Made by a program: the position numbers and the translations under genes. Source: Deltaproteobacteria bacterium (GTDB taxonomy: Bacteria > Desulfobacterota > Deferrimicrobia > Deferrimicrobiales > Deferrimicrobiaceae). Taken from it: a stretch of DNA of 35,203 nt. Position 1 is the first letter of the stretch. Every line of letters starts with the position of its first letter. Shown in pieces: positions 10,052 to 15,863 of this stretch. The notes beneath the pieces were generated by a model, which did no database searches, was not told the DNA's origin, and worked only from the letters and a program-made list of their open reading frames with translations. The DNA lies in contig JACRCO010000057.1 in the NCBI GenBank assembly GCA_016218975.1, positions 1-35,203 of the forward strand, read 5' to 3'.

Positions 10052-10065
10052 GTATGTTAACCTAC
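10052..10065 (+). promoter_or_regulatory. LexA box before lexA
   Basis: GTATGTTAACCTAC differs by one base from the perfect palindrome found before the RecA-like gene. It ends 4 bp before the lexA ATG. Autoregulation is the norm for LexA, which supports reading this as the operator. Confidence 0.75.
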
Positions 10066-10069
10066 ATGC

Positions 10070-10687
10070 ATGGCGAATACCGCTCCATTGACGGTATCCC
10101 AGCGCCAGGTACTGACGTTTATACGGGAGTTCATGGCGCGGAACCGGTTCGCCCCCACGGCCAGGGAGATCGCCGCCAGGTTCGGAATAGCCGAGAAAAA
10201 CGGTTTCTACTACCTGGATGTCCTGGAGCGGAAAGGATACATACGGCGCGGCAGGCACATGGCCCGGCGGATCGAATTCCCGGACGAGCCGTCGCACCCT
10301 GTCCCGATCAGGGTTCCCGTGCTCGGACGGGTCCCGGCGGGAAACCCCCTCGAAGCCGTCGAAGAACTCGAGGAGGAGTTGTTTCTCGATCCGTCCCTGA
10401 CGGGAAGCGGCGAGATTTTCTCGCTTCGCGTCAAGGGGGAAAGCATGATGGATGCGCACATCCGTGACGGGGACTACGTCCTGGTCCGGTCGCAGCAAGG
10501 CGCCGATGACGGCGACATCGTCGTGGCCGTGATCGACGGGGAAGCCACGGTCAAGCGTTTCTCCAGGCAAAGGGGAAAAATCCGTCTCGAGGCCGCAAAT
10601 CCGGCCTACCCGACGATCATCGTCCCTTCCGATTCCTCCTCTTTCCGCATAGCGGGCAAGGTCGTCGGCATTTACCGGAAAATTTGA
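10070..10687 (+). CDS. lexA: LexA SOS repressor
   Basis: The 205-residue repressor has an N-terminal winged helix (about 8-70) and an S24 self-cleavage domain. The autolysis site is A90-G91 (RVPAGNPL) and the Ser/Lys dyad is S125 (GESMMD) and K162 (ATVKRF). When RecA filaments form, it cuts itself and releases its targets. The recognition-helix region (PTAREIAARFGIAEKNGFYYLDVL) differs clearly from the classical LexA form that reads SxxTVHxHL. That fits the unusual operator seen here. No Shine-Dalgarno site precedes the ATG, which is only 4 bp from the operator; no other good start exists before the DNA-binding domain. Confidence 0.95.
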   Translation: MANTAPLTVSQRQVLTFIREFMARNRFAPTAREIAARFGIAEKNGFYYLDVLERKGYIRRGRHMARRIEFPDEPSHPVPIRVPVLGRVPAGNPLEAVEELEEELFLDPSLTGSGEIFSLRVKGESMMDAHIRDGDYVLVRSQQGADDGDIVVAVIDGEATVKRFSRQRGKIRLEAANPAYPTIIVPSDSSSFRIAGKVVGIYRKI

Positions 10688-11211: not shown

Positions 11212-11643
11212 ATGCCGCAGCAATCCCTGATCGACGCAGCCAAGGCGCCCGTCATCGCCTTCGGCGAAAAGAACTGGAATGCATTGATGACCTGCGTTAC
11301 GGCAGGAGTGCTCTACGATGAAGTGCCCACTCAACGGAAAACGCGCGGCATCGAGCATCTGCTCGAATGCTGGATGGGATGGAGCAACGCATTCCCCGAT
11401 GCGAAGGCGACGTTCCACTCGCCGCACGTCAGCGGCAGCACCGTAGTGCTGGAGGTAACGTGGCACGGCACGCACAGGGGGCCGCTGGAGACACCGGGGG
11501 GCCGGATCCCTGCTACCGGCAGGCCGGTGGAAGTACCCGCATGCCTGATCGTGGAAATCGAGGAGGGCAAGGCCAAATCGCTGCGCCATTACTTCGACAT
11601 GGCGACGCTGCTGCAACAGATAGGAATCGCGAAAGCCGCTTGA
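11212..11643 (+). CDS. SnoaL-like / NTF2-fold protein
   Basis: The 143-residue protein matches the SnoaL-like polyketide-cyclase/ester-cyclase group of the NTF2 fold: an N-terminal helix with the region WNALMTCVTAGVLYDEVPT, a central GIEHLLECWMGWSNAFPDA stretch, and a C-terminal IVEIEEGKAKSLRHYFDMATLLQQIG. Members bind small hydrophobic ligands; many have no known reaction. A strong AAGGAGGAAG lies just before the ATG. It ends just before the LexA box of the RecA-like gene, so it is not itself under that operator. Confidence 0.8.
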   Translation: MPQQSLIDAAKAPVIAFGEKNWNALMTCVTAGVLYDEVPTQRKTRGIEHLLECWMGWSNAFPDAKATFHSPHVSGSTVVLEVTWHGTHRGPLETPGGRIPATGRPVEVPACLIVEIEEGKAKSLRHYFDMATLLQQIGIAKAA

Positions 11644-11644
11644 T

Positions 11645-11658
11645 GTATGTTAACATAC
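11645..11658 (+). promoter_or_regulatory. LexA box before the RecA-like gene
   Basis: GTATGTTAACATAC is a perfect 14-bp palindrome. It starts 1 bp after the SnoaL-like stop codon and ends 4 bp before the next ATG. The following bases CTATATGGA are identical to those after the polymerase box. Confidence 0.8.
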
Positions 11659-11662
11659 CTAT

Positions 11663-12325
11663 ATGGATGGCCCGCTCTCCATGCCGCAGGTCGACATCGA
11701 ACGGGCCTCTTCCATCTGCCTCTCCCCGCCGCGGGGGAAGTTGGCGGGAATCTTCGGGGAGGGGGCCTGCCCCCTGGCGTTGCGGGCGCTGGCCCGCCCT
11801 CTCCTTCGCGGAGAACCCGTCGTGGCCGTGGACGGGGGGAACCGATTCGACCCGTACGCGATCGGAAAAGCGGCCGCGGCGCTGGGCGGAAGCGGGAGGG
11901 AAGCCCTCTCCCGCATCCGCGTCTCCAGGGCGTTCACCTGCCACCAGATGGAGGCGCTCCTCGTCCGCAAGCTGCCGGCCGCCCTGTCCCGGTACGACGC
12001 ACGGCTGGCGCTGATCCTGGGACTGCCCGAGACGTTCACGGACGCCGACGTCCCTTACGCGGAGGCGTGCCGGCTCTTCCGGAGCTGCCTCTCCGCGCTC
12101 CGGCGGATATCCATGGAAGGCGTCCGCGTCGTCCTGGTCGGCAAGGCGGCGCCGCGGGACGGGGGACGCTTCTCCCCCCTGCCGGCCGCGGAAAACAGGG
12201 AAGGGCTCTTCCGGCACCTTGCGCAGACCGCCGACCCCGCGCTTTTCCTGTTGAAGGAAGGTGACGGCCGGCGATGGGAGCTGCGCCGGAGCGATTCCCG
12301 GCGCGCCGGCCTCCCGGGAGGATGA
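11663..12325 (+). CDS. RecA/RadA-fold protein without a P-loop (ImuA-like)
   Basis: The 220-residue protein follows the plan of a RecA/RadA core: a strand and loop (GKLAGIFGEGACPLALRAL) where Walker A should be, VVAVDGGNRFDPYAIGKAAAALG, the RVSRAFTCHQMEALL segment, a Walker-B-like strand (LALILGLPETF), LRRISMEGVRVVLVG, and an ending LFLLKEGDGRRWELRRSDS. The Walker A lysine and GKT/S are absent, and the Walker B aspartate is replaced by glycine, so ATP hydrolysis is unlikely. ImuA, the RecA-like adaptor of mutasome cassettes, is the closest functional parallel; this is inference. It has an adjacent LexA box, no Shine-Dalgarno site, and a stop overlapping the next gene's first ATG. Confidence 0.75.
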   Translation: MDGPLSMPQVDIERASSICLSPPRGKLAGIFGEGACPLALRALARPLLRGEPVVAVDGGNRFDPYAIGKAAAALGGSGREALSRIRVSRAFTCHQMEALLVRKLPAALSRYDARLALILGLPETFTDADVPYAEACRLFRSCLSALRRISMEGVRVVLVGKAAPRDGGRFSPLPAAENREGLFRHLAQTADPALFLLKEGDGRRWELRRSDSRRAGLPGG

Positions 12326-12327
12326 CG

Positions 12328-12606
12328 ATGGGACGCACCGTGCTTTCCTTCACCCAGGAACTGTACCGCGAGGAGGAATCCTGGAAAGCGTTCCGCCGGG
12401 CGCTTCGCCGGGAGGACCGGGAGCTGTTCGACGAGCTGTTCGCGGCGGCCCGCTACCACACGGCCGCCTGCGCCTGCTCGGGCCGGGCACTGCCCTTCGA
12501 GGCGATCCTCATGAGCATTCTCGTCGAGGAAAGACGGGCGGTAAGGGAGCTTTCCCGGCGGGTCGACGAGCTGGCCCGTCAGTGCGAGGCGCGGCGCCTC
12601 GAGTGA
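12328..12606 (+). CDS. Small helical protein coupled to the RecA-like gene
   Basis: The 92-residue product is predicted to be nearly all helix and strongly charged, with a central segment FDELFAAARYHTAACACSGRALPFEAILMSILVEERRAVREL and a C-terminal coiled-coil-like tail. I do not recognise a named family. GGGAGG (12316-12321) is ideally placed for the ATG at 12328; an earlier ATG at 12322 overlaps the RecA-like stop (ATGA) but is too close to that site. Tight coupling under one LexA box implies that it acts with the RecA-like protein and, probably, the downstream polymerase. Its last 28 bp overlap the 3' end of the converging membrane-protein gene. Confidence 0.75.
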   Translation: MGRTVLSFTQELYREEESWKAFRRALRREDRELFDELFAAARYHTAACACSGRALPFEAILMSILVEERRAVRELSRRVDELARQCEARRLE

Positions 12607-13067
12607 CGGCGGACGGCCCGGAGCGGATTGCTCCCCTTCGATTTTTCGAAGCAGTCGGGGCACATCCCGTGCGTAGTCTGCGTGTCGAACCCCGAGGAGA
12701 AGATTTTTTCGACTGAAGTCCATTCGCCTTCATACTGGATCTTCCTGCACCACGCGCAGACTTTCAGGAATCCTTCCAAACGGAACAACCGCAACACCAG
12801 CCGGTTGGTCGCGAGGAGGATGACGACGGCGACGAGAATGACCGTTATCACTTCGAACGATCCTTCCCACATTTCGGGCTGACTCGTGTATTTCGCGAAC
12901 AACCTCTTCGGCATCTCGTAGATTTCGTCCATGAGGACCATGGCGAGGATCGCGAGAAAGCCGAGCGCCTCGTAAACGAGGATTCTCTCCGGATACCTTC
13001 TGATTTTCAAATCGCGCCTCCCCTGCAGTTGAGATGCGCATCGAAGAAAATCCTCTTCTTTTTTCAT
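12579..13067 (-). CDS. Two-pass membrane protein with CxxC zinc-like C-terminal domain
   Basis: The 162-residue protein has two hydrophobic segments (about 30-46 and 74-92) and a cytoplasmic tail VCAWCRKI...GEWTSVEKIF...THGMCPDC. This tail is the CAWCxxI...HGxCPDC module often found at the end of PAS or HAMP proteins in deltaproteobacteria and likely to bind zinc. Here it is attached directly to the membrane hairpin, with no kinase or cyclase. The function is unknown. No Shine-Dalgarno site is seen before the ATG. It lies on the opposite strand within the SOS block, and its 3' end overlaps the small helical protein gene by 28 bp. Confidence 0.75.
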   Translation of the reverse strand: MKKEEDFLRCASQLQGRRDLKIRRYPERILVYEALGFLAILAMVLMDEIYEMPKRLFAKYTSQPEMWEGSFEVITVILVAVVILLATNRLVLRLFRLEGFLKVCAWCRKIQYEGEWTSVEKIFSSGFDTQTTHGMCPDCFEKSKGSNPLRAVRRHSRRRASH

Positions 13068-13086
13068 CTAAACGCCGGAGGATGCC

Positions 13087-13620
13087 ATGAGAAATTCCGC
13101 AACCGCGCTGCTGGCGGCCGTCGTCTTGTCGCTCATCCCGTTTCCGGGCGCCGCAGAGGAGGGAAAGAAAATGGACGACCTGTTCATCGCAAGCCCGGCT
13201 TTCGAGGATCAAGGGTTGATTCCGCCGAAATACACGTGCGACGGCGCCGACGTCAATCCGCCGCTGTCGATCGGCAACATTCCCGTTAAAACGAAATCCC
13301 TCGCGCTGGTCGTAGACGACCCGGACGCCCCGATGGGAACCTGGGTCCACTGGGTGATGTGGAACATGGGGCCCGGCGTGGATTCGGTCCCCGAAAATTC
13401 CATCCCGAAGGGAGCCCTTCAAGGAACCAACGACTTCCGGAAACAGGGCTACGGCGGGCCCTGCCCGCCTTCCGGGACGCACCGGTACTATTTCAAGCTG
13501 TACGCGCTGGACGCCCCCCTGGCGCTGCAGCCGGGCGCCACGAAGGCGCAGCTCGAGCAGGCGATGAAGGGGCATCTGCTCGGCAAGGCCGAGCTGATAG
13601 GGCTGTACCGCAGAAAATAG
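13087..13620 (+). CDS. YbhB/YbcL-type PEBP-family protein, secreted
   Basis: The 177-residue protein carries a signal peptide (residues 1-21, cut near GAA-EE) and the phosphatidylethanolamine-binding/Raf-kinase-inhibitor-like fold: FIPPKYTCDGADVNPPLSI, ALVVDDPDAPMGTWVHWVMWN with the ligand-pocket DPDAP and HW residues, and GPCPPSGTHRYYFKLYALD. Bacterial members bind small anionic ligands; no reaction is established. GGAGG precedes the ATG at 13087. It stands between the RecA-like operon and the polymerase, and the polymerase LexA box begins 8 bp after its stop. There is no sign that it belongs to the damage response. Confidence 0.9.
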   Translation: MRNSATALLAAVVLSLIPFPGAAEEGKKMDDLFIASPAFEDQGLIPPKYTCDGADVNPPLSIGNIPVKTKSLALVVDDPDAPMGTWVHWVMWNMGPGVDSVPENSIPKGALQGTNDFRKQGYGGPCPPSGTHRYYFKLYALDAPLALQPGATKAQLEQAMKGHLLGKAELIGLYRRK

Positions 13621-13628
13621 CCATATGG

Positions 13629-13642
13629 GTATGCTAACATAC
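13629..13642 (+). promoter_or_regulatory. LexA box before the PolB2-like polymerase
   Basis: GTATGCTAACATAC differs from the perfect palindrome by one base and ends 4 bp before the ATG at 13647. The downstream CTATATGGA is the same as at the RecA-like gene. Confidence 0.8.
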
Positions 13643-13646
13643 CTAT

Positions 13647-15863
13647 ATGGACAAGGGTCCGGCGGAAGCGTCCCGGCGGAACATGGCCGGGTGGGTGTTC
13701 GACACGATCCCCGACGCGGGCGGAATGACCGTCTGGTTCCGCACGGAGACGGGGGAAACGGTTCCCCTGCGCGCTCCCTTCCGCCCATCCTTCGCCCTGG
13801 CGGGGAAACACCTTGGAGAGGCCGGCCTCCGCGCGGCCGCCGCCCGCTGGAACTGCTCCCTTGAGCGGCGGGAAGGCGCCGAATTCTTCTCCGGCAGGCG
13901 CCTTCCGGCGTGGAAGTTCACCGTCGCCGCTCCGGGGCTGCTGGGCGCCGCCGTCCGGAGAGCCGAAAAAGCGTTCGGTCCCGAAGCCCTCTTCGACGCC
14001 GACATCGCCCCGGAGCAGCAGTTCGCTTACGCCACCGGCCTCTACCCGCTCTCGCATGCCCGCGTGGAGTGCGGGTACGACGGCGCGATCCTTTCCATCC
14101 GGATCCTCGATTCCCCGTGGGAAATCGACGCGCCGCTCCCCTCCTTTTCCACCGCGCTTCTGAGAATGGAGGGGAAAGGCCACCCGGCGCACGGAAGGAC
14201 CCGCCCGCTGGAATTCGTCTCGGACGGCGTAACGCACACACTGCTGTGGGAAGACGGGGAGGAGTTTCTCCGTGAGTTGCTGCGGCTCCTGAAAACGGCC
14301 GATCCCGACCTGCTCGTCACCGAGTACGGGGACGATTACCTCATGCCGCGCCTGCTGGAGCTGGCCGGCCGGCTCCGCGTACCCCTTCCCCTCGGGCGCC
14401 CGGCGCGCGTTCCGACTCCCGGCGGCGCCGTCCGCCGCGCGAAGGAGCGGTCGTACCTTTCCTACGGCCGCGTTGTCTTCCTCGCGGCGCCCCACACCCT
14501 TTCCGGCCGCTGGCACGTTGACGCCCGCAACTCCTTCCTTTTCGGGGAGACGGGCCTGCCCGGGCTCATCGAGCTGGCGCGCCTCTCCGGCATCCCCCTG
14601 CAGCGCCTCGCCCGGACCTCGCCCGGAACGGCCATCTCCGCGATGCAGGTGGCTACCGCCCTGCGCCGCGGGATCCTGGTGCCATACAAGAAACGCGAGC
14701 CGGAGGAGTTCAAGTCCGGCGCCGACCTCGTCGTTACCGACAAGGGGGGGCTGACCTATCTGCCGCGTCCGGGCCTGCACGGGAATGTGGGCGAGCTCGA
14801 CTTCGCTTCGATGTACCCCTCCCTCATGGACCGCTACAACATATCCCCCGAGACGATCAACTGCGGATGCTGCGGAAAGCATGCGCCCGGAGGCCGCAGG
14901 GGCACGCCGGTGCCCGAGATCGGCGCCCACACGTGCGTCCGCCGCAGGGGGCTTGTGCCCGATACGATCGCCCCGATCCTCGCCAAGCGGCGCCTGCTCA
15001 AAATACGGCAGGCGGCGTGCGCCTTCCCCGAGGAACGCGATCTGTTCCGGAAACGCCAGACGGCGCTCAAGTGGCTCCTGGTGGTCTGTTTCGGGTTCCT
15101 GGGATACCGGAACGCCAGGTTCGGCCGCATCGAGGCGCACGAGGCGGTCACCGCCTGGGGACGGGAGAAGCTCCTGGCCGCAAAGGAGATCGCGGAGCGC
15201 GACGGTTTCCTCTTCCTGCACGGGCTGACCGACGCCATCTGGGTCAAGCGTCACGGCGCGTCCGAAGGCGATTACCGGGAGCTCGCGGAACGTATCACGG
15301 ACGAAACCGGGATGCCGATCGCGCTGGAAGGGGTCTACCGATGGCTCATGTTCCTTCCGTCGAAGCGGAACCCGGCGGTGGCCGTCCCCAACCGGTTCGC
15401 GGGAACATTCTCCACCGGCGAGATAAAGGCTCGCGGGATCGCGATGCGCCGGTCGGACACTCCCCCGCTCGTCGCCGCCCTCCAGCGGGAGCTCCTGGCG
15501 CGGATGGCCGCGGCGGAAACGGCCTCGGAACTTGCTGCCATGCTGCCGGAGCTGCGCGGTATAAGGGAGCACGCCGCGGCCGCGCTGCGCGAGGGACGCG
15601 TCCCGCCCGAGGCGCTGGCCGTCGCCCGGCGCCTGTCCAAACCGCCCGGGCAGTACGTCGCGAACACCGTCGCCGCCGCGGTCACCCGCGAGCTGTGCGG
15701 GCGCGGCGTGGCGCTCCGGCCGGGATCGAAGATCCGGTACCTGCTGGCCGACGGAAAAGGACGGGCGATGGGGTTCCTGGACGGCAACGAAACGCCGGAT
15801 CTTCCCCGCTACGAAGAGATGCTGAGCGAGGCGGAGGAGGAACTGCTCGGGCTTATCCGATGA
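13647..15863 (+). CDS. PolB2-type family-B DNA polymerase, proofreading site degenerate
   Basis: The 738-residue protein keeps the family-B palm. Motif A is D385 in LDFASMYPS. Motif B has K475 but reads KWLLVVCFG in the place of the usual KxxxNSxYG. Motif C is HGLTDA (525-530): the first aspartate of YGDTDS is Leu527, and the second, D529, which holds the metal with D385, is kept. Cysteines in NCGCCG...HTC after motif A resemble the PolB2 cluster. The exonuclease region is degenerate: the ExoII position reads YGDDYLMP with Leu232 for the catalytic Asp, and no DIE-type ExoI motif is visible. It probably extends or bypasses damaged templates without proofreading. An adjacent LexA box indicates SOS induction. 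An internal ATG at 13683 is an alternative start. Confidence 0.85.
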   Translation: MDKGPAEASRRNMAGWVFDTIPDAGGMTVWFRTETGETVPLRAPFRPSFALAGKHLGEAGLRAAAARWNCSLERREGAEFFSGRRLPAWKFTVAAPGLLGAAVRRAEKAFGPEALFDADIAPEQQFAYATGLYPLSHARVECGYDGAILSIRILDSPWEIDAPLPSFSTALLRMEGKGHPAHGRTRPLEFVSDGVTHTLLWEDGEEFLRELLRLLKTADPDLLVTEYGDDYLMPRLLELAGRLRVPLPLGRPARVPTPGGAVRRAKERSYLSYGRVVFLAAPHTLSGRWHVDARNSFLFGETGLPGLIELARLSGIPLQRLARTSPGTAISAMQVATALRRGILVPYKKREPEEFKSGADLVVTDKGGLTYLPRPGLHGNVGELDFASMYPSLMDRYNISPETINCGCCGKHAPGGRRGTPVPEIGAHTCVRRRGLVPDTIAPILAKRRLLKIRQAACAFPEERDLFRKRQTALKWLLVVCFGFLGYRNARFGRIEAHEAVTAWGREKLLAAKEIAERDGFLFLHGLTDAIWVKRHGASEGDYRELAERITDETGMPIALEGVYRWLMFLPSKRNPAVAVPNRFAGTFSTGEIKARGIAMRRSDTPPLVAALQRELLARMAAAETASELAAMLPELRGIREHAAAALREGRVPPEALAVARRLSKPPGQYVANTVAAAVTRELCGRGVALRPGSKIRYLLADGKGRAMGFLDGNETPDLPRYEEMLSEAEEELLGLIR

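Follow-up and report, generated by a model that had tools for sequence, protein, structure and literature searches.

How an archaeal-type DNA polymerase has come to stand, together with two partner proteins, behind the same operator as lexA is the question raised by a genomic region of a Deltaproteobacteria bacterium. The region was analysed within a stretch of 35,203 nucleotides (hereafter the window), in which lexA, iRadA, PPB2 and PolB2 lie together, all on the + strand. A bacterial operon lexA–iRadA–arCOG07300 (PPB2)–PolB2 has been predicted previously, with LFML04_0990-0993 of Leptospirillum ferriphilum as an example and a role in DNA damage proposed (Makarova et al., 2014, PMC4104785). 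The PolB2 mutasome, comprising PolB2, iRadA and a PPB2 trimer, was modelled by Timinskas et al. (2025, PMC11791011), who also gave its bacterial gene order, the enrichment of lexA nearby and the marks of its families; bacterial PolB2 has also been surveyed in PMC12926913. The initial annotation of the window, a PolB2 mutasome under bacterial LexA, is thus largely right but not new, since the arrangement is published (PMC4104785, PMC11791011). The four-gene machine is already known; the operator evidence and the broken-up arrangement are the additions made here. Very probably, the locus represents a LexA-controlled mutasome cassette of the bacterial PolB2 type, in which an ancestral single operon has been broken up and common control has been kept by copies of the operator.

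Layout of the locus and its putative operators

In the window, three transcription units make up the cassette, and bystander genes lie between them. The first gene, lexA (10070..10687), encodes a 205-residue protein with winged-helix and S24 peptidase parts, and a SnoaL-like gene (11212..11643, + strand) occupies the gap between it and iRadA (11663..12325). PPB2 (12328..12606) starts 2 nt past the iRadA stop. The gap between PPB2 and PolB2 (13647..15863) holds a membrane-protein gene with no assigned function (12579..13067, − strand) and a gene for a PEBP-family protein (13087..13620, + strand). The latter two had been taken for bystanders from the outset, and the neighbourhood comparison agrees: the SnoaL, PEBP and membrane-protein genes are absent from the cassettes of relatives, with the single exception of the membrane-protein gene, which likewise lies upstream of PolB2 in one genome of the same genus.

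A palindrome with the core GTATGYTAACATAC precedes lexA (with one mismatch), iRadA and PolB2, and ends exactly 4 nt before each ATG. The putative LexA operators, all on the + strand, are GTATGTTAACCTAC at 10052..10065, before lexA; the perfect 14-bp palindrome GTATGTTAACATAC at 11645..11658, before iRadA; and GTATGCTAACATAC at 13629..13642, before PolB2, which sits within the longer imperfect palindrome CCATATGGGTATGCTAACATACCTATATGG. No separate operator precedes PPB2, which shares that of iRadA. The original observation that the genes for the RecA-fold protein, the helical protein and PolB2 lie behind the operator of lexA is accordingly borne out, one operator preceding each transcription unit.

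These sites are hardly products of chance. The 21-base motif TATGNTAACATACCTATATGG, with up to three mismatches, gave three strand matches at two sites of the window, where 0.00 were expected, and the exact matches to TATGYTAACMTAC in the whole 2.95-Mb assembly are the three cassette sites only. A pattern search of this genome found no exact or one-mismatch operator outside the cassette. At two mismatches, TATGYTAACMTAC gave 34 strand matches genome-wide and its reversed control 47, which shows no excess of operators elsewhere; an additional two-mismatch candidate before an amidohydrolase-like gene (C5:3653-3666) was judged a chance match. The search consisted of pattern matching only, in an assembly that is 97.6% complete, and weaker operators could be missed. 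When 24 genomes of the order were searched with GTATGNTAACATAC, matches on both strands (palindromic) with at most one mismatch were located at cassette genes, against 0–1 matches per strand and genome for the reversed control. Recurrent single-strand matches in other genomes of the order, GRATGRTAACATAC, were rejected, as they fall at coding 3' ends where read; several, G022:C130 among them, were left out.

A repressor of another kind, for example of the MarR or TetR type, might bind this operator, with lexA a mere neighbour and the cassette outside SOS control. We infer the binding of LexA, we know of no LexA operator that the sequence resembles, and recA has no copy of it. Nevertheless, in most genomes of the order this operator, or one closely similar to it, also stands before lexA at a nearly constant distance, and across the phylum the cassette begins with lexA. 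In addition, one genome (G015, L094) has a lone lexA with its operator, neither iRadA nor PolB2 being found in the genome, as would be expected of autoregulation. Control by another repressor is, in our judgement, distinctly improbable. In other families, different sequences stand before lexA, such as ACTCATCAAATGATGAGT or ACAAGTATACTAATGATTAGTATA beside a TTGACA box; the operator has thus apparently diverged, with the linkage to lexA kept. In genome G016 (L062:5383-5416), the lexA operator lies inside a perfect 34-bp palindrome, TCCCATATGGGTATGTTAACATACCCATATGGGA, that takes in the ATG of the gene, a hint that the lexA transcript has little or no leader.

Linkage of the four genes and probable break-up of the operon

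Within the order, a PolB2 match was obtained in 19 of the 24 genomes, iRadA in 18 and a cassette-type LexA, at no less than 62% identity, in 20. Every genome with an intact PolB2 also has iRadA, incomplete assemblies aside; the exceptions to the pairing are the incomplete assemblies G002 and G012 and genome G011, where iRadA is missing and PolB2 is reduced to a remnant. Cassette-type LexA and PolB2 are found together in 18 of the 24 genomes (Fisher p=0.018, kinship ignored). Co-occurrence of the three genes elsewhere had been chosen beforehand as a check on the initial annotation, and it was found: the genes are linked with lexA in almost every genome of the order that has PolB2 and in 25 of 40 PolB2 loci retrieved from across the phylum, most of the other 15 being cut by contig ends. 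The order lexA–iRadA–PPB2–PolB2 on one strand is seen in 24 of these 25 complete loci; in the remaining one (L131:8929-9092, genome G242), PolB2 is divergent from lexA–iRadA–PPB2 with a single operator between them. The window, like most relatives, keeps the order iRadA–PPB2–PolB2. Pairwise distances of LexA and PolB2 are correlated (r=0.91, 41 loci), as expected of joint inheritance, although shared ancestry alone yields values of this kind too.

Where the operon is contiguous in relatives, the operator stands before lexA only. In four of the five rearranged loci, a detached unit has an operator copy of its own: both iRadA and PolB2 in the window, PolB2 in G016 and G011, and iRadA in G006. 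In the fifth locus (G005, L066), no operator was recognised for PolB2, which is separated from PPB2 by 2.2 kb; an apparent ribbon-helix-helix, antitoxin-like protein is encoded between the two genes (L066:2148-4338). The G006 locus indicates how such copies may arise. An operator and a truncated lexA start (codons 5-37) lie ahead of the detached iRadA–PPB2 pair on the opposite strand (L061:17742-17864), and lexA and PolB2 directly adjoin elsewhere in the same locus; the operator was therefore probably copied along with the 5' end of lexA. In the window, iRadA carries an extra N-terminal MDGPLS ahead of its native start MPQVDIERA, and these six residues resemble the LexA start of relatives, MDRPLT. 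As a trace of copying of the lexA 5' end, this likeness between short peptides is suggestive only.

The insertions that divide the cassette in the window might instead mark a decaying, functionless remnant in this lineage. Decay does occur in the same genus: in the G011 locus (L078:123-1766), a cassette in decay, PolB2 lacks residues 114-686 and the genome has no iRadA, yet lexA still stands there along with two operators. However, none of the four genes of the window is truncated, the conserved residues are retained, identity to relatives is about 57-85% and every unit still has an operator; we regard decay of this locus as very improbable. In the reading that we prefer, an ancestral operon lexA–iRadA–PPB2–PolB2 would have been split by inserted genes in this lineage, and each piece would have been given a copy of the lexA operator, so that common control was retained. 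Interrupted PolB2 mutasome operons are rare (PMC11791011). The operon of L. ferriphilum links the same four families and has the same proposed role in DNA damage, but the passages on it give gene linkage only and no operator (PMC4104785), whereas the present locus has three units, bystanders and one operator per unit.

PolB2 and its partner proteins

The 738-residue polymerase is a B-family enzyme (Pfam DNA_pol_B, 4e-29) with an intact motif A, DFASMYPS. Its motif C reads LTD instead of DTD, the first Asp of DxD being lost, and this motif is xTD, never with Asp first, in all 52 PolB2 sequences readable there. The D(K/R) loop motif is D365-K366 here; all 53 sequences that could be read at this point have DK. 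The assignment to PolB2 made at the outset is upheld by the B-family match, the xTD motif C and the DK motif. With the first Asp of DxD gone, the case that the enzyme would be catalytically active is argued from the precedent of archaeal PolB2. By eye in the alignment, exonuclease motifs I-III were unrecognisable. An apparent split of the PolB2 gene in one family of the phylum coincides with contig ends and was not accepted as real. In that family, assemblies break inside PolB2 (L148-L154; G272, G364, G311, G347 and G330), near model position 406/407 at a cysteine-containing loop in four of five (about 386 in G330); other members bear an insertion at that loop, perhaps a repeat or a mobile insert.

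Among solved structures, the iRadA profile matches archaeal RadB/RadA and not bacterial RecA (best E 5.6e-6), and its predicted model (pLDDT 79) matches Rad51/RadA structures with E ~1e-9. The Walker A lysine is absent, and no sequence read has GKT in the Walker A region. PPB2, of arCOG07300 type, is a 92-residue protein whose true start codon is the second ATG, so that it begins with MGRT; the start is MGRT or VGRT in 48 of 48 loci, two of which use GTG. Its model is all-helical (pLDDT 88), and a fold search found no structural match in the PDB. Neither iRadA nor PPB2 has a Pfam or NCBIfam family above cut-off, and weak matches to HnRNP_M_NLS and DUF1595 were taken as chance. The RecA-fold protein had initially been called ImuA-like, an identity rejected on these profile and fold matches to archaeal RadA/RadB and Rad51. 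We give almost no credence to the set being a variant ImuA–ImuB–DnaE2 mutasome, which it resembles in the similar logic of a lexA beside a RecA-fold protein and a polymerase and in the existence of lexA2–imuABC operons (PMC5261740), as the genome also encodes a single DnaE and, in the Y family, a single DinB-like polymerase, ImuB and a second DnaE being absent.

In common with the modelled PolB2 mutasome, the locus has the PPB2 MGRT arm, an inactive RadA, loss of the first Asp of DxD, the DK motif, the gene order and lexA nearby (PMC11791011). The differences are the interrupted gene order and the clamp-binding motif: a simple pattern search found no credible beta-clamp motif in iRadA or PolB2, where many mutasome members, though not all, have one.

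Reach of LexA and the proposed mechanism

LexA, the only one encoded in the genome, has the Ala90-Gly91 cleavage site and the Ser125–Lys162 dyad. Neither DnaE2, ImuB nor UmuC was found in the genome. With one DnaE and no second Y-family polymerase, neither Pol V nor ImuA–ImuB–DnaE2 was detected, which leaves PolB2 as the sole mutasome candidate. In the upstream sequences read, no operator precedes recA or dinB, the single Y-family gene. Since these two genes lack the operator and no site was found outside the cassette, LexA may control nothing other than its own mutasome. A broader proposal is advanced tentatively, at somewhat less than even confidence: in this bacterial family, LexA would have given up general SOS regulation and would govern its own mutasome alone, as a private switch for mutagenesis, with recA, dinB and the rest outside its regulon; on break-up of the cassette, each fragment would gain an operator copy, here four bases before the start codon.

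On sequence grounds, an archaeal-type PolB2 with two partners appears to be under the control of LexA, the SOS repressor of bacteria. In undamaged cells, LexA would sit on the palindromic operators overlapping the 5' ends of lexA, iRadA–PPB2 and PolB2 and keep the three units off. Upon DNA damage, RecA filaments would trigger self-cleavage of LexA at Ala90-Gly91, and the three units would then be transcribed together. As published models and the genetics of archaeal Dpo2 suggest, iRadA, the PPB2 trimer and PolB2 would form an error-prone extender polymerase, which would bypass lesions and cause mutations. Two known systems share parts of this scheme. In Pseudomonas putida lexA2–imuA–imuB–imuC, LexA is likewise co-transcribed with the mutasome that it regulates, but the polymerases are the C-family ImuC/DnaE2 and the Y-family ImuB, a different polymerase family from PolB2 (PMC5261740), and P. 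putida has a second lexA whereas this genome has one. In Sulfolobus, Dpo2/PolB2 also occurs with iRadA and PPB2, is damage-inducible and is needed for targeted mutagenesis, but its regulation is linked to archaeal Orc1/Cdc6 and not to LexA (reviewed in PMC11791011).

A search of the main texts of papers, with thin coverage of subscription journals, found no description of LexA operators of the PolB2 cassette. The present locus provides operator evidence for the wiring of an archaeal-type PolB2 mutasome into bacterial SOS control, which was earlier inferred from lexA as a neighbour. It also suggests that this control survives fragmentation of the operon, an argument for the importance of joint induction of the components. 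If LexA indeed controls nothing else, the family would offer a clean natural case in which mutagenesis runs separately from the other parts of the SOS response.
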